Below are positions 20,188-27,108 of a DNA stretch of 64,000 nt, in pieces (the first letter of the stretch is position 1; every line of letters starts with the position of its first letter). The notes below the pieces were generated by a model. It had not been told where the DNA came from and made no database searches. It saw only the letters and a program-made list of their open reading frames with translations. The translations under genes and the position numbers were made by a program. The DNA lies in NCBI GenBank assembly GCA_021325235.1, contig JAJPHN010000031.1, forward strand, positions 1-64,000, given 5' to 3'. Origin of the DNA: Terriglobia bacterium (lineage in GTDB: Bacteria > Acidobacteriota > Terriglobia > Bryobacterales > Bryobacteraceae).

Positions 20188-21156
20188 ATGACGAGACGGA
20201 CGTTAGTGGGATCGCTTGCGGCAGCGGCGGTGATGAAGGGCGGCGCGCGCCGGGAGGAAGAAAAGGAGCCGGTGGAATGGAAGCCGCTGCTCGGGGTGCT
20301 GGGACCGTATACGAAGGCGAATGTCGAATTTGCGCGCTCGGCGGGATTCGACAACATGATTCTGGGCGGCGGGCCGGGGTCGACGCTCGACGCGAACAGG
20401 ATCACCGATGCGCAGATCGCCGAGATCAAGCAGGTGCTTGCGGCGAGCAAGATGCATGTTTCGGCGTTTCAGATCGACGGCAGCCATATCGACCCAAATC
20501 CGGAGAAGCGCGAGCGGACGAATGCCTACTTTGTGAAGGCAATTGAGCTGGCCGGGAAGCTGGGCGTGCCGTATATCGGGACGTGTTCAGGGAAGGATGC
20601 GTCGAAGCCGTTTGAAGAGCAGGTATCGGAGATTGTGAAGGTCTATCGCGCGAAGTATTTCGATGCCTGCGAGAAGAACAACGTGAAGCTGCTGTGGGAG
20701 CCGTATCCGGGGAACCCGAATATTGCGACGAGTCCGGTGGGATATCGGGCGTTGTTCAAGGCATTTGGGGATGCTCCGTATGTGGGGTTGCAGTATGATC
20801 CCTCGCATCTGGTGCGGCAGTTTATGGACCCGATTGCGACGGCGCGGGAATTTGCGGACAAGATTTACGACGTGCATCTCAAAGACACGGAGATCCTGTG
20901 GCCGGTGTTGCGGGATGGCGGGATCAATCCGGTGAATCATGCGAGCTGGTGGCGGTATCGGATTCCAGGGATGGGATCGATTTCGTGGCGGGACTTTTTC
21001 AGTGTGCTGCAGGATCAGGGGTACAAGGGCGCGATGAGTATCGAGCAGGAGGATCCGCTGTATGGAGGCGAGACGAATCGCGGGCCGGATTTCAGTGAAG
21101 ATTTCAAGACCGGGTTTGTGATGGCGAAGCGGTATCTGGCGCAGTACGTGCCGTAG
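20188..21156 (+). CDS. Tat-exported sugar phosphate isomerase/epimerase-like protein
   Basis: A 322-residue xylose-isomerase-like TIM-barrel protein. MTRRTLVGSLAAAAVMK is a Tat-type signal (Thr-Arg-Arg then a hydrophobic stretch), so a folded, perhaps metal-loaded enzyme is exported. The barrel shows GLQYDPSHLVRQ (metal-binding Asp-His), DVHLKDTE (His/Lys) and MSIEQEDPLY (Glu). The open frame runs upstream to 19993 but is Arg/Gly-rich shadow sequence; the ATG at 20188 follows a TAAGAT-containing segment. The sugar substrate is unknown. Its 3' end overlaps the convergent CheW-repeat gene by 53 bp. Confidence 0.85.
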   Translation: MTRRTLVGSLAAAAVMKGGARREEEKEPVEWKPLLGVLGPYTKANVEFARSAGFDNMILGGGPGSTLDANRITDAQIAEIKQVLAASKMHVSAFQIDGSHIDPNPEKRERTNAYFVKAIELAGKLGVPYIGTCSGKDASKPFEEQVSEIVKVYRAKYFDACEKNNVKLLWEPYPGNPNIATSPVGYRALFKAFGDAPYVGLQYDPSHLVRQFMDPIATAREFADKIYDVHLKDTEILWPVLRDGGINPVNHASWWRYRIPGMGSISWRDFFSVLQDQGYKGAMSIEQEDPLYGGETNRGPDFSEDFKTGFVMAKRYLAQYVP

Positions 21157-22525
21157 GGGCCTGAACGGTCAGGAGATCGAGTACGCTTACGTTGCGGCGG
21201 GTGCCTTCGCCCGGAAGCTGGATCATGTGGGTGAGGCCGGGATTGTCTTTGCGGGCGATAGGAGGCACGGGCTGCGGGACGGCCATGACGAGCGATTCGA
21301 CGCGCGGAACAACGTAGCCGTGAAGTTCGTCGGAACTGCGAGTGATCAGGACGGATTGAGAGGCGTCGAGCTGTGGGAGCGGGTGGCCCAGGATTGCGCC
21401 TAAATCGAGGACGCTGACGCTCTGGGCGCGCCATTCGAGGAAGCCCCGAAAAACGGCGCCAGGCCGGCCGAGTGAGGCCAGTTGCGGGAGCGGAATAATG
21501 CCTTCGATATCGCGCAGGGCGGAAGCGACGGTGCCGCGGCCGGATTCGTAAACAACAAAGGATTGCTGTTCGCCGGTTTCGCTCGCATTTGCGGAACAGG
21601 AGTGAGCAGCGACGGTGACGTTGCGGATGTGTTCGTGTTGGAGCAGGGCGCGGGCGTCCAGTACGAGCATAGAATCGCTGCCGCGGCGCAGAAGACCGCC
21701 ATAGACTTCGGCGTTTGGAATGCCGGAGTGCGCGACGGAGCTGATCTCGCTGCCGGGTATTTCGAGCGCGCCGAGAACGTCGTCGATTTCGATACCGATC
21801 TGGCGGCCCTGGTGTTCGACGAGCAGACCGCGTTGGGCAGCAGGTTGCGCACTGCCGGGCAGATGCAGAAAACGGGGCAGGTTGAGCATGGGGAGCTGCC
21901 GGTTGTCGACGTTCCAATACGTCCGGAAGAAGCTGCCGATGGGTGTGGCCGTGTTCTCGCCGGCGGGAATGGCGCGCAGTACGTTGGCGATGTCGAGCGC
22001 GAAGATGTGGCCGGCGCTGCGAAAACAGGCGAGCTTGCATTTCGGGGAGGAAGCGTTCGCGGTTGAGGCGCAGGGCCGGGCGGCGAGCGTGCGGATGCCG
22101 TTCTGTTGGAGCAGAGCGGCGAGATCGAGGATCGAGACAGCTTCGCCGGTTTCGGGATCACGGAAGAAGCGCGGGAAGAGAGCGCGGTTATGGGCGGCGC
22201 TTTCGAATTCCGAGAGAGCGAGTGTGCCGGGACGGGCGACCTTAACGATGGCATCGATCGAGAGCGCGAGCAGACGATTCTCTGTACGGACGATGAGGGC
22301 GAGTTCGGCCGGCTCCTGGACGGAGCTGCCGGGCGAAAGCAGTGTTGCGAGCGAAATGAGCGGAATGAGCTGATCGCCGCGGCGGAGCGCTCCCGAGCAA
22401 TAGACGCCGGGATCGGGGATCGGCAGGATCTCGGGGCGAGAGACGACCTGCTCGATGTTTTCGGTCGAGAGCGCGATCTGGAAACTGGCGGCGCGCAGGA
22501 CGCCGTAGACGTCCGCAGTGGTCAT
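21104..22525 (-). CDS. Protein with three tandem CheW domains
   Basis: The 473-residue product consists of three CheW-like SH3 double-barrel modules, about residues 8-145, 165-305 and 320-455. Each ends with the CheW-type closing strand ([32 protein letters not shown]). CheW couples chemoreceptors to the kinase CheA; a triple version could crosslink arrays or bind several partners. No CheA, CheR, CheB or CheY gene is nearby. Its ATG overlaps the stop of the upstream chemoreceptor gene (ATGA), so the two are made together and presumably bind each other. Confidence 0.85.
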
Positions 22526-24690
22526 GAGCGCAAAGCGAGTTCCGATTGCGGCTGAGCGAGCTGGGAGTTCAGGCGCACGAGGGAGCTGGTCTGTTCGGCA
22601 GCAGCTTCGCGGGATTGGGCAGGCGACACCTCGTCGATGGAACGCGTGAGGCGATCGGTGGTGGCCGACTGCTCTTCGGCGGACTGACGGATGCCGGAAG
22701 TGGACGAGATGGCGCCGGCTGTGTTCTTCGCAAGCGACGAGAAGGTGTTCTCGATCTGGCCAGTGATTTCGAGGCTTGATTCGATGTGGCGTGAGGACTC
22801 CTGAATCAGGCGCGCGATTTCGCGGGTGGCTTGAGCGGAGCGTTCGGCGAGTTTGCGGACTTCGTCGGCGACGACGGCGAAACCGAGACCGTGCTGACCG
22901 GCGCGGGCCGCTTCGATAGCGGCGTTGAAGGCGAGCAGGTTAGTCTGGCTGGCGATTTCCCCGACCGTTTTGGCGATCTCGCTGACGCCATCGGCGCTCG
23001 ACCGGATCTCGCGGATGACTTCGAAGGAGCGTTTGGCGGCCTCGGCGCCGCCGGCGGTCTGCGATTCGGCGGAAGAGAGCAGAGTTTGCGAGCGCGCGGT
23101 TTCGTTTAGAATGGCCGAGGTTTTGGACGCAATCTGGGCACTATCGGCGGACATCTGGCGAGCAGTTCGGGCGAGCTTGTCTTCGCGTTCGACCTGATAG
23201 GTGATATCCATGGCGAATTTGACGACTTTGTAGGGCTCGCCTTTGGCATCGAAGATCGGGTTGTAGGTCGCCTGCAGGCAGACGCGATGGCCGTGCTTGC
23301 CGACGCGGAGCACGCGCCCCGAGTAAAACTCGCCGCGGCTTAGACGAGGCCAGAAGCTGCGGTATTCAGGCGAGGCGACGTACTCGGGTTCGCAGAAGAT
23401 TTTGTGGTGCTTGCCAACGACCTCGCGGGCGTTGTAGCCGAGCAGTTCAAGGAAGGCGTCGTTCGCGGAGAGTACGTTACCTTCGAGATCGAATTCGATG
23501 ACGGCCTGCGAGCGGCCGATGGCGGCGACTTTGGCCTGGTACTCGGCGTTCTGCTGTTTCTGCGCGGTGATGTCGGTGGCGAACTTGACGACTTTGACGG
23601 GGCGGCCTTCGGCGTTGAGGATCGGGTTATAGGAAGCCTGGATCCAAACGTCCGTTCTGTTTTTTGAGAGGCGGCGGAATTCGCCGGCGTGATACTCGCC
23701 GCGGCGGAGTTTGTTCCAGAAATCGCGGTATTCGTCGCTGGCGGCGTAGACGGGATCGCAGAACATGCGGTGGTGCTTGCCGCGGACTTCCTCGAGGGTG
23801 TAGCCGAGGGTATCGAGAAAAGCTTTGTTGGCATTCAGGACGATGCCATCGAGATCGAATTCGATGACGGCCTGGACGCGGTCGATGGCCTGCATTTTGG
23901 CCTGGTATTCGAGGGTCTGGAGCTTGGAGGCGGTGACGTCGGTGGCGTATTTGACCACCTTAACCGGCTGCCCTTCGGCATTGAAGACCGGATTGTAGGA
24001 GGCCTGGATCCAGATCTCTTTGCCGTTTTTGCCGTAGCGTTTGTACTCGCCGGAGTGGTACTGGCCTTCGGCTAATTTGGCCCAAAAATGGCGGTAATCG
24101 TCGGAGCGGGTATAGGAGTCCTCGCAGAAGATCTGGTGGTGGCGGCCCTTGATCTCGTCGAGCGAGTAGCCCATGACGTTCAGGAAGTTTTCGTTGGCGT
24201 GGAGGATGAAGCCTTTGAGATCGAACTCGATGACGGCCTGGACGCGATCGAGGGCTTCGAGCTTAGCGGAGAATTCGGAGTTGCGAAGCTTGTGATCGGT
24301 GATGTCGGTGGCGAATTTGACGATTTTGACGGGTGAGCCTGCGGCGTCGAGGACGGGGTTATAGGAGGCGGAGAGCCAGATGGAGGAGCCGTCCTTACGG
24401 AAGCGCTTGTATTCGCCGGAATGGAACTGGCCGCTGCGGAGATTTTCCCAGAATTGACCGTATTCGTCGGACTCGGCGTAGGCCGGATCGCAGAAGATGC
24501 GGTGGTGCTGGCCGACGATCTCGTCGAGCTCGTAGCCGGTAGTGTTCAGAAAATTCTGATTGGCGGTGAGGATGGTGCCGTCGACATCGAACTCGATGAG
24601 GGACTGGACACGGTTCAACGCGGTCCAGAGAGAAGAGAAGTGGGCAGAAGCGGCGGGTGCGGATAGTTGCTGGTCGTACTTATTCGGCAT
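22522..24690 (-). CDS. Soluble methyl-accepting chemotaxis protein with four PAS modules
   Basis: A 722-residue chemoreceptor without any membrane segment. Four PAS-PAC units of about 122 residues (starting near 24, 146, 268 and 390) repeat the pattern [10 protein letters not shown]-x-HH-x-[IM]-FC, SGEYKR and [12 protein letters not shown] cytoplasmic signalling hairpin follows, with a canonical tip ([17 protein letters not shown], then [16 protein letters not shown]). PAS domains commonly bind heme, flavin or small ligands; the cofactor here is unknown. TACTCT lies 9 nt before the ATG, without a Shine-Dalgarno sequence. It is the first gene of a two-gene unit with the triple-CheW protein. 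Confidence 0.93.
23158..24621 (-). repeat. Four tandem 366-bp PAS-PAC coding repeats
   Basis: The chemoreceptor gene carries four in-frame units of 122 codons with constant period and recognisable DNA-level similarity. Shared words include the segments encoding VIEFDL, GKHHR-FC and [12 protein letters not shown]. The equal spacing and similarity argue for recent or conversion-maintained internal duplication. Confidence 0.75.
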
Positions 24691-24767: not shown

Positions 24768-26051
24768 TTACGCCTGGGAATTTGCTGGGGCGCGGAGCGG
24801 GCGTTCGGGATGGACGAAGAGCCAGACCACTGCGCCGGAGGCACAGAGAAGGGCAGCCGTGAGGAAGGAGGCGGTCCAGCCGTAGCGGGCGGCGATGGCG
24901 GGGGTGAGGGAGGCGGTGAGCGCGCCACCGATCTGGCCGCCGGCGTTCATGAAGCCGGAGACGGAGCCGGCGAACGGGCCGCCGATATCAGCTGAGATCG
25001 ACCAGAACGAGCTTTGGGAAAGGTAGAGTGCGCCGGCGCCGCCTGCGAGGACGACGGTGGCGAGCAGCGCGCTTTGGACCTGGGTCCCGAGGGCGACGAA
25101 AAGCGCGGCCAGAGCGATGCCGAAGAAGGCGATGCCACAGCGGCCGATACGTTTGTTGAAAGAGGCGGTGAGGCGGTCGCTGAGCCAGCCGCCGATCAGA
25201 GAGCCGACGGTCATGGCGAGGAAGGGAAGCATGGCATAGGTGGCGCTCTGCTTGAGATTGAGGCCGCGGACCTGGTTGAGATAGAGGAAAAACCAGCTGA
25301 AGAAGATATAGGCGACGTAGCCGTAAGCGAAGTAGCTGAAGGTGATGAGCAGGATGTCGGGGTGGGTGAGGATGCGGGACCAGGGTACGGATTGCGGGCT
25401 GTTGGTGGGTGCGGCAACGGGCAGGCCGGATTCGACGCGGTCGAGTTCGGTGGGTGAGATCCAGGGATGGCGGCGCGGATCGTTGCGCGCGATCCAGTAC
25501 CAGATGGCGCCGGCGATAAGGCCGAGCGCGGCGCTGGCCCAGAAAGAGCTGCGCCAGCCATAGGTGGACATGAGCCAGGAGATGAGCTTCGGCGTGACGC
25601 CGGAGCCGAGCCCGACACCCGAAAAGATGAGGCCGTTGGCTTTACCGCGTTCGATGGACGGAATCCAGCGGGCGACGATCGTGTTGGAGGCCGGATAGAC
25701 GACCGCTTCCCCAGCGCCGAGACAGAACCGGATGAGGATGGCCATCCAGAGCAGGCCGCTCATAGCTGGGGAGAGCGCGGTGATGAGGGTTGTGAAGACG
25801 GCCCACCAGATAGCGCCGAAGAGAAGGATGGAGCGGGCGCCGAAACGGTCGGCGAGCCAGCCAGCCGGTGCCTGGCCAGCGGCGTAACCAAGGATGAAGG
25901 CGCTGAAGACGAAGCCGAGCTGTTGCTGCGAGAGATGAAACTCACGGGCGATCGCGCCGCCAGCTATGGAGATGTTGACGCGATCGAGGTAGGCGATGGC
26001 GCTGATGATGAAGATCCAGAATACGAGGAGCCAGCGGACTGGAAATTTCAT
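24768..26051 (-). CDS. MFS transporter, anion:cation symporter (hexuronate-like) family
   Basis: A 427-residue 12-helix major facilitator. The motif after helix 2 (GWLADRFGARSILLFGA) and YLDRVNISIAG in helix 1 are typical of the ACS family (ExuT, galactonate and glucarate carriers). The gene follows a 2-keto-3-deoxygluconate-type kinase, which fits uptake of a hexuronate or aldonate. I chose the ATG at 26049-26051 (MKFPVRWLLVF). An almost identical 17-bp copy of this start region lies immediately upstream and provides an out-of-frame ATG. Confidence 0.88.
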   Translation of the reverse strand: MKFPVRWLLVFWIFIISAIAYLDRVNISIAGGAIAREFHLSQQQLGFVFSAFILGYAAGQAPAGWLADRFGARSILLFGAIWWAVFTTLITALSPAMSGLLWMAILIRFCLGAGEAVVYPASNTIVARWIPSIERGKANGLIFSGVGLGSGVTPKLISWLMSTYGWRSSFWASAALGLIAGAIWYWIARNDPRRHPWISPTELDRVESGLPVAAPTNSPQSVPWSRILTHPDILLITFSYFAYGYVAYIFFSWFFLYLNQVRGLNLKQSATYAMLPFLAMTVGSLIGGWLSDRLTASFNKRIGRCGIAFFGIALAALFVALGTQVQSALLATVVLAGGAGALYLSQSSFWSISADIGGPFAGSVSGFMNAGGQIGGALTASLTPAIAARYGWTASFLTAALLCASGAVVWLFVHPERPLRAPANSQA

Positions 26052-26068
26052 CGGACCGGAAACTTCAT
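26034..26068 (-). repeat. 17-bp tandem duplication around the transporter start
   Basis: On the minus strand ATGAAGTTTCCGGTCCG (26068-26052) is followed directly by ATGAAATTTCCAGTCCG (26051-26035), two mismatches in 17. The first copy encodes only MKFPVR before a TGA that overlaps the true start ATG. The first ATG itself overlaps the kinase stop (ATGA). Confidence 0.8.
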
Positions 26069-27108
26069 CGCTGGATGCGGCCGGAACCACCGCCCGTGAC
26101 GAGGGCGTTTACTTCGGCGGCTGAGAAGCGGGCAAAGTCGCCGGGGATGGAGTGTTTGAGAGCCGAGGCGGCGACGGCGAATTCGAGGGCTACACGGTCG
26201 TTTTCGAGATAGTTGAGGCCATAGATGAGGCCGGCGGCGAAGCTGTCGCCTCCGCCGACGCGATCGACGATGTGGGTGATGTCGTAGGCGCGGCTCAACA
26301 GGAAATCGCGGCGGTTGTGCAGGCAGGCGGACCAGCCGTTATGCGATGCGTTGCGGGATTCACGCAGAGTAATGGCAATCTTTTCGAGATTCGGGAAGCG
26401 GTCGAGGACGAGCTTTGCGAGTGCTTCGAATTTGGCGTGCTGGAGGGAGCCGGATTCGACGTCGATATCGGTGTCGATACCGAGACATTTCTGGCAGTCC
26501 TCTTCGTTGGCAATGCAGAGGTGTGCGTACCGGAGGAGATCGGGCATAATCTCGTGGGCAGTGCGGCCCCACTTCCAGAGATTTTTGCGGAAGTTGAGAT
26601 CGATGGAAATTTTGAGGTTGGCGGCGCGGGCGGCTTCCAGTGATTCACGGGCGAGCGCGGCGGCGGATTCGCTGAGGGCAGGGGTGATGCCGGTAAGGTG
26701 CAGCCAGGCGGCACCGGCGAGTGCGCGCGACCAGTCGATCGTGCCGGGTTGGGCGAGCGCGATGGCGCTGTAGGCGCGATCGTAGACGACGGTGGAAGAG
26801 CGCTGGTTGGCGCCGGCTTCGACAAAGTAGACGCCGAGACGGCCGGAAGCGCGGACGATGTGCGAGGTGTCAACACCGAAGCGGCGGAGCTCGGCAATGC
26901 AGGCGTCGGCGAGCGGGTTCTTTTCGGGGAGGACCGTCAGATAGCGGCTGGAGCCGCCGAGTTGAGCGATGGAGACGGTGACGTTGGCCTCTCCGCCGCC
27001 CCAGGTTGCGACGAACTGTGGGGATTGAAGGAAGCGCTCGAAACCGGGCGGGGAAAGGCGGAGCATGATTTCGCCGAAGGCGGCGATGACGGGTTCGGAT
27101 GAGGGCAA
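26065..27108 (-). CDS. kdgK: PfkB-family sugar kinase, probably 2-keto-3-deoxygluconate kinase
   Basis: A 347-residue ribokinase-fold kinase. The N-terminus [19 protein letters not shown] and the [17 protein letters not shown] segment are typical of KDG kinases. The PfkB C-terminal signature is [17 protein letters not shown], with the catalytic Asp in GGGDS. It would phosphorylate 2-keto-3-deoxygluconate for the Entner-Doudoroff-type aldolase. The start codon appears to be TTG at 27106-27108, with TAACCT 6 nt upstream. Its stop overlaps a decoy ATG just before the transporter gene. The exact sugar is inferred. Confidence 0.82.

Follow-up and report, generated by a model that had tools for sequence, protein, structure and literature searches.

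The DNA analysed here, called the window, is the 64,000 nucleotide stretch at positions 1 to 64,000 of contig JAJPHN010000031.1 from a Terriglobia bacterium (GenBank: GCA_021325235.1). It encodes a soluble PAS chemoreceptor and, directly after it, a protein made of three CheW domains, which we call CheW3. We propose that the two genes form a satellite sensory module, in which a cytoplasmic PAS receptor with its private adaptor CheW3 would feed the chemotaxis kinase CheA that is already resident in the cell. Judged from sequence comparisons, we give this reading a probability of about 0.55. Pairs of this kind are also found in distant bacteria, and in the sequence trees the two proteins cluster with the receptors and the CheW3 proteins, respectively, of other pairs.

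The receptor and CheW3 genes

The receptor gene (22522-24690; this gene and all its domains, as well as CheW3, lie on the reverse strand) encodes 722 amino acids with four PAS modules and one MCP signalling domain. Pfam annotates four PAS_3 domains and a single stretch of MCPsignal (Pfam: PF00015) at residues 541-689 with 113 bits and an E-value of 1.5e-32 (22624-23070). The PAS modules are repeat units of 122 residues, located at residues 27-148 (24247-24612), 149-270 (23881-24246), 271-392 (23515-23880) and 393-514 (23149-23514). An HHxxFC motif is found in each of them, at residues 62 (HHRIFC), 184 (HHQIFC), 306 (HHRMFC) and 428 (HHKIFC). The original prediction, which was made from the DNA sequence alone, had described four PAS modules with an HHx[IM]FC motif each and a receptor without a membrane helix. 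Both descriptions are confirmed, the first by Pfam and the motif positions, and the second by the hydropathy profile, in which no membrane helix was found and the highest mean over 19 residues is 0.95. The modules had also been called near-identical, which they are not, as their pairwise identity is 45-61% and the fourth module is the most divergent one. The nearest solved PAS chains include the PAS domain of Aer (PDB: 8dik) and that of a sensor protein (PDB: 3ewk).

The hairpin tip of the signalling domain was said to be canonical. The conserved hairpin tip is indeed there, but its motif is not the fully canonical one: the window receptor carries LAFNAA (residues 586-591 with Phe588; 22918-22935), compared to LALNAA in the three other receptors of the genome and in Tar of Escherichia coli. 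As described below, this motif is the mark of receptors paired with CheW3. No methylation-site consensus was found in the window receptor with a scan that does detect it in Tar and in both receptors of the chemotaxis gene cluster of the same genome.

CheW3 (21104-22525) has 473 amino acids, and Pfam finds three stretches of CheW (Pfam: PF01584) with 140.6 bits for the whole protein, namely domain 1 at 22103-22495, domain 2 at 21632-22030 and domain 3 at 21173-21559. Both genes and the composition of CheW3 from three CheW domains are thus as originally predicted. It was further stated that the receptor is translated just ahead of CheW3, which is borne out by the junction, where the TGA stop codon of the receptor and the ATG start codon of CheW3 share 4 base pairs as ATGA. 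An AlphaFold2 model of CheW3, built from 18 sequences, shows three domains with a CheW-like strand order, and a Foldseek search with this model matches CheW and CheA P5 chains with E-values down to 1.4e-8, as expected for a CheW fold. The mean predicted local distance difference test score (pLDDT) of the model is 78.7 and its predicted template modelling score (pTM) is 0.42, so that the three units look folded, and the model does not define their mutual arrangement.

Chemotaxis genes in the host genome

All reading frames of at least 60 amino acids in the window were searched with CheA, CheR, CheB and CheD of this genome, and none of these proteins gave a match elsewhere in the window. The host assembly (5.03 Mb, 95.72% complete) has a single CheA, located on another contig (C22). 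There it is part of a full chemotaxis gene cluster that adjoins fliG and fliM and contains CheA, CheW, CheR, CheD, CheB, CheX and two receptors. The statement that the pair comes with no other chemotaxis genes therefore holds for the window and does not hold for the genome. MCPsignal domains are found four times in the genome and at separate places, two of them in the cluster on C22, one on contig C5 and one in the window, and the only single-domain CheW of the genome belongs to the cluster as well. The receptor-CheW3 pair thus lies apart from this cluster, as a satellite in a genome with one CheA.

Occurrence of the pair in other genomes

Among 101 genomes of the same family and 396 genomes of the same phylum, a close full-length match to CheW3 was found in its own genome only, with up to four candidates per genome scored in the phylum scan. 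The other matches are partial with 20-32% identity, and some of those in the phylum represent another triple-CheW type. A different, less diverged triple-CheW gene was observed ahead of a CheA-type gene with an Hpt domain at three loci of the phylum (L025, L026 and L030) and ahead of CheB at a fourth one (L029).

A protein search of plasmid records detected the same receptor-CheW3 pair in Caballeronia and Paraburkholderia, and in Ruegeria a more distant triple-CheW gene together with a PAS receptor, CheR and CheD. Genome contigs were additionally scanned with an alignment of the receptor, and the best 79 loci among the matches listed were examined. CheW3 is present at 17 of these 79 loci and CheA at none of the 17. 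It directly follows the receptor in 16 cases, and in Janthinobacterium it lies two genes away, after the receptor, CheR and CheD. The hosts of the 17 loci are Halomonas, Pseudomonas, Duganella, Caballeronia, a pseudomonadote, Janthinobacterium and five Micromonosporaceae actinomycetes, and thus include two named phyla besides that of the window. At the remaining 62 loci, CheA was found beside PAS receptors with a single CheW in 18 cases. The idea that the pair is an oddity of the window was rejected, as it is found in other bacteria. Searching other genomes for the pair had been proposed with the original prediction, and the search shows that it recurs in distant bacteria, regularly without an adjacent CheA.

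The labels CheA, CheR, CheB, CheD, MCP and PAS at these loci come from phmmer searches with the proteins of the host genome, of which the Che queries were checked by Pfam; one locus of form B and two of form A, as defined below, were cross-checked by Pfam. The neighbourhood scans were aimed at chemotaxis genes, PAS and MCP only. The stretch examined for CheA was up to about 13-15 kb for the 79 loci and for the 20 form-B regions below, and about 4.5 kb in the first scan of Burkholderiaceae and in Micromonosporaceae.

Some loci have other arrangements of PAS receptors. Very long PAS receptors were seen in Algicola (L102) and Nevskia (L105), with frames of 1550 and 1537 amino acids and 8 and 9 PAS matches, respectively. 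Two Nevskia loci (L105 and L107) are chemotaxis gene clusters with several tandem PAS receptors beside CheW, CheR, CheD and CheB; the end of a CheA is visible in L105 and no CheA within the stretch of L107.

Two forms of the module

The loci fall into two forms. Form A consists of the receptor gene and cheW3 and is found at 42 loci including the window, and form B has the order receptor, cheR, mostly cheD, and cheW3 and is found at 22 loci, among them those of Ruegeria and Janthinobacterium. Each locus is counted once in these tallies, as the samples overlap: two Caballeronia and five Micromonosporaceae genomes were returned again, and two more resemble the plasmid hosts by position.

In Burkholderiaceae a CheW3 match was detected in 27 of 249 genomes, of which 7 are form A and 20 are form-B regions, for which wider flanks were examined. 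The receptor, CheR, mostly CheD and then CheW3 were found in 19 of these 20 regions. The remaining one (L177) has a CheR fragment and CheW3, with no receptor seen. CheD was recognised in 16 of the 20 regions by two scans combined (11 by one of them), and CheA in none. In Micromonosporaceae there are CheW3 matches in 33 of 200 genomes, 25 of them strong, and the receptor is adjacent in 24 of the 25; at the last strong locus (L209) the stretch ends on the receptor's side. The original prediction expected homologous loci to lack regular CheA, CheR or CheB neighbours. This is correct for CheA and CheB, and incorrect for CheR, which, mostly together with CheD, is a regular member of the sister form.

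Of 18 form-A junctions that were read, 12 could have a start/stop overlap of 4 bases; in the others the genes overlap by 1 base or are 1-28 bases apart. At one form-A locus of Nucisporomicrobium, which was found in two samples (L091 and L200), the receptor lies in two frames, so either the gene is broken or the sequence contains an error.

The methylation-site consensus was found in all 21 form-B receptors compared to 1 of 26 form-A rows, which represent 22 loci. Thus the loss of the enzymes and the loss of the methylation sites go together. Form A has neither cheR nor cheD, and its receptors are nested inside a clade that contains form B.

The tip motif and the receptor tree

The LAFNA tip was found in 17 out of 17 receptors paired with CheW3 and in 1 of 62 receptors from loci without CheW3 (among the best 79 loci; L121, L122, L129, L131, L132 and L139 gave no receptor and stand outside the 62 tips). 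This single receptor belongs to a Bacteriovoracaceae locus (L130), where CheR and CheD follow before the stretch ends; the locus is probably of form B, with its CheW3 beyond that end. Second receptors, which are present at three CheW3 loci, carry LALNA.

We built a receptor tree in which the tip column was masked. It separates 39 LAFNA receptors from 26 others with a support of 99.7 in the Shimodaira-Hasegawa-like approximate likelihood ratio test (SH-aLRT). Form-A and form-B receptors both fall into the LAFNA clade, where those of form A, including the window receptor, make up a group (support 99). The window branch is long (2.21). The tree has 65 rows: one receptor (L066) was dropped by the motif used, 18 near-duplicate module rows were left out, and 10 of 25 Micromonosporaceae rows and 26 of the receptors without the Phe were chosen. 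Independent co-evolution of the tip Phe with CheW3 was considered and rejected, as the Phe has a single origin on this tree.

CheA in the genomes that carry CheW3

All 17 genomes behind the CheW3 loci of the best 79 have CheA, and so does the genome of the window. In Burkholderiaceae CheA is found in 27 of 27 genomes with a CheW3 match, compared to 187 of 249 in the whole sample. In Micromonosporaceae 25 of 25 strong carriers have CheA, compared to 60 of 200 genomes of the sample. No carrier without CheA was seen among the host genomes tested. The suggestion in the original prediction that the pair does not depend on a CheA is thus unsupported.

The scaffold that was suggested there can be compared with the F9 class of chemosensory systems, in which the receptor DosM and a triple CheW (CheW3, VC1402 in Vibrio cholerae) build cytoplasmic arrays (PMC7534058). 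Cytoplasmic arrays consist of two receptor layers sandwiched between two baseplates (PMC3964821). A receptor and CheW3 could form such a sandwich or a filament without any CheA and serve as a scaffold, sink or switch, which would titrate receptors or CheW or hold a client that is not a kinase. The array of V. cholerae F9 still assembles without its CheA, in lower numbers (PMC7534058), no CheA was found at the 17 loci or in the 20 form-B regions, and two chains with three CheW domains each could together close a six-membered ring. We nevertheless consider such a kinase-free array unlikely, because a scaffold would not need to be confined to hosts with CheA, as the strong carriers in Micromonosporaceae are. 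Moreover, the V. cholerae F9 array requires DosM with two signalling domains, which bridge the layers (PMC7534058), while the window receptor has one.

Residues and tree of CheW3

Each of the 65 CheW3 proteins in our three sets, which include 32 of form A and 22 of form B, was compared with 20 single CheW proteins, using E. coli numbering. Identity is low in this comparison, so single columns are uncertain. Arg62 and Gly57 of CheW have a role in receptor and kinase binding. Both are invariant in the 20 single CheW proteins, and Gly133 is invariant too. In form B, Arg62 is present in 22 of 22 proteins in each of the three domains. In form A it is found in domain 1 of 27, domain 2 of 9 and domain 3 of 30 out of 32 proteins, and Gly133 shows a different pattern with 0, 31 and 3 out of 32, respectively. 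The window CheW3 has Arg62 only in domain 3 and Gly133 only in domain 2, and Gly57 is kept in both domain 1 and domain 3; a Glu38-type residue is present in no domain. The Arg62-type residue of domain 3 is Arg366 (codon at 21428-21430), and its column is at least 90% conserved among 18 members of the family. Each of the three domains has therefore taken its own course of divergence, and the window copy is strongly diverged. The original prediction would have been weakened by CheW domains without their binding surfaces, and this is half true: form A keeps the Arg62-type residue mostly in domains 1 and 3 and has mostly lost it in domain 2, and the window protein keeps it in domain 3 only. R117 and F122, which are interface-2 residues of CheW (PMC5181776), are rare in CheW3, and even among the single CheW proteins they are found in only 5 and 7 of 20, respectively.

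The CheW3 tree comprises 52 proteins (32 of form A, 9 of the 22 of form B and 11 others); it is unrooted, has several long branches and does not include VC1402. Form A and the Novosphingobium protein are split from form B and the triple-CheW proteins of clusters containing CheA or CheB (support 99), and the latter proteins form a group of their own (support 100). The branch of the window CheW3 is long (3.38).

The long branches of both proteins, together with fewer of the usual CheW residues than in most form-A relatives and the lack of a close full-length CheW3 elsewhere in the family and phylum genomes, would fit an acquired pair that is decaying or drifting in this genome and has little function there. 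We regard this as quite improbable, because neither frame is interrupted over its 722 or 473 amino acids and their overlap is kept, as are the PAS and tip motifs and Arg366, and because the modelled CheW3 has three domains with CheW-like strand order at the confidence given above. The divergence of the CheW3 domains from ordinary CheW might also point to an output partner other than CheA, for example a cyclic di-GMP enzyme or a different kinase with affinity for CheW-like domains. Cyclase/phosphodiesterase genes were found near one Caballeronia locus (M1242), and the systematic neighbourhood scans covered chemotaxis genes, PAS and MCP. Such a partner does not predict the confinement to genomes with CheA, and we consider it very unlikely.

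Proposed mechanism

In the satellite module as we propose it, receptor dimers would assemble into trimers, whose LAFNA tips would bind CheW3. The three linked and diverged CheW domains may take neighbouring positions in the ring of CheA P5 and CheW, or make up half a ring that consists of CheW alone. The Arg62-type surface, which faces the receptor or the kinase, would be presented by domain 3 and, in most relatives, by domain 1 as well. The complex would then join or edge the array with the single resident CheA of the C22 cluster. In this way the PAS modules would sense an internal signal of redox state or energy, which would bias CheA and hence the flagella. Without methylation the output would be the unadapted, absolute level of the signal.

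Several points weigh against this proposal. The p-values for the link between CheW3 and CheA (Fisher's exact test: 2.6e-4 in Burkholderiaceae and 1.1e-15 in Micromonosporaceae) are too small, because related genomes are not independent, and the link may reflect a shared motile lifestyle only. The association of LAFNA with CheW3 is one of descent, given the single origin of the motif, and hence no independent sign of contact between tip and CheW3. From its residues, the fit of the window CheW3 to an ordinary CheA is doubtful, with an Arg62-type residue in one of three domains and no Glu38-type residue. Both receptors of the C22 cluster have 4HB sensor domains, and resident receptors of this type may not mix with the window receptor. 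The form-A and form-B CheW3 proteins do not appear as nearest kin in the tree, so CheW3 may not have descended with the receptor throughout. Finally, the plasmid records include a CheW3 of Novosphingobium with no receptor beside it and a more distant triple-CheW gene of Sphingobium inside a full chemotaxis gene cluster.

Genes next to the pair

A gene for a transporter of the major facilitator superfamily (MFS) lies on the same strand and ends 77 bases ahead of the receptor gene, and is itself preceded by a gene for a PfkB-type sugar kinase (24768-27108). The pair may be co-transcribed with this sugar-uptake unit. An ancestral empty insertion site was sought in 25 relatives via the neighbouring MFS gene, which gave 12 loci without any other neighbour from the window.

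Comparison with known systems

Triple-CheW adaptors and partial sets without CheA are already known from the F9 class, whose receptor DosM is absent from the receptor-CheW3 module. Like F9, the module has an adaptor with three CheW domains, a soluble receptor, some sets without CheA and a sporadic distribution that suggests horizontal transfer. It differs from F9 in that there is no DosM and that the receptor combines one signalling domain with PAS sensors, while 98% of DosM homologs have no sensory domains according to the F9 paper; there is also no cheA or cheBR beside the window pair. In our tree, form-A CheW3 is moreover split from the triple-CheW proteins that are encoded in clusters with CheA or CheB. 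Partial F9 sets without CheA in Nitratiruptor and Nautilia are thought to borrow the CheA of another class (PMC9321776). Partial F9 was counted in 8 of 2781 species with DosM and CheW3 jointly required (PMC9321776), and the count would omit the receptor-CheW3 module for this reason. No clear triple CheW of the F9 type was found among the matches listed for six other gammaproteobacterial genomes. In four of the weaker Micromonosporaceae matches (L217, L218, L220 and L221), the genes for a receptor, a triple CheW and CheB are consecutive. Each of these genomes also has a CheA match at a distance of about 5 kb, and the arrangement is much like an F9 cluster.

The soluble PAS receptors of the BdlA and AerC type, which are orphans with two PAS domains, resemble the window receptor. 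We know of no multi-CheW partner for them, and neither CheV nor ParP, to our knowledge, has three CheW domains. CheV (PMC12691637) and ParP (PMC5706961) are additional proteins that join receptors into the array, as CheW3 would; CheV is a single CheW-like domain fused to a receiver, and ParP tethers arrays to a pole anchor. A further likeness is found in Agrobacterium fabrum, where CheW2 (atu2617) is encoded beside a cytosolic receptor gene (atu2618), apart from the chemotaxis gene cluster and in a genome with one CheA (PMC12654446). This CheW2 is an ordinary CheW, whose loss affects chemotaxis more severely than that of the other CheW (PMC12654446). An account of the receptor-CheW3 module was not found in our literature search, which did not cover all work on CheW-like domains.

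We also put forward a more tentative idea, which we hold with clearly less confidence than the satellite module itself. It is possible that the module is a widespread and horizontally moving one that brings its own adaptor: the private tip and the private CheW3 would build ring positions in or beside the array of the host and so wire a foreign sensor without adaptation to whichever CheA the recipient has. It is not yet understood how existing arrays take up a new class of receptor, and the F9 study found no residue change that explains the mixing of classes (PMC9321776). If the idea is true, and if the tip fits CheW3 better than either of them fits the parts of the host, the module would overcome the incompatibility that normally blocks the transfer of receptors between chemosensory classes. 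The module also lends itself to defined tests, with a single receptor clade that carries a single tip change, a multi-CheW adaptor dedicated to it, and two forms, one of which has the methylation machinery and one of which does not.

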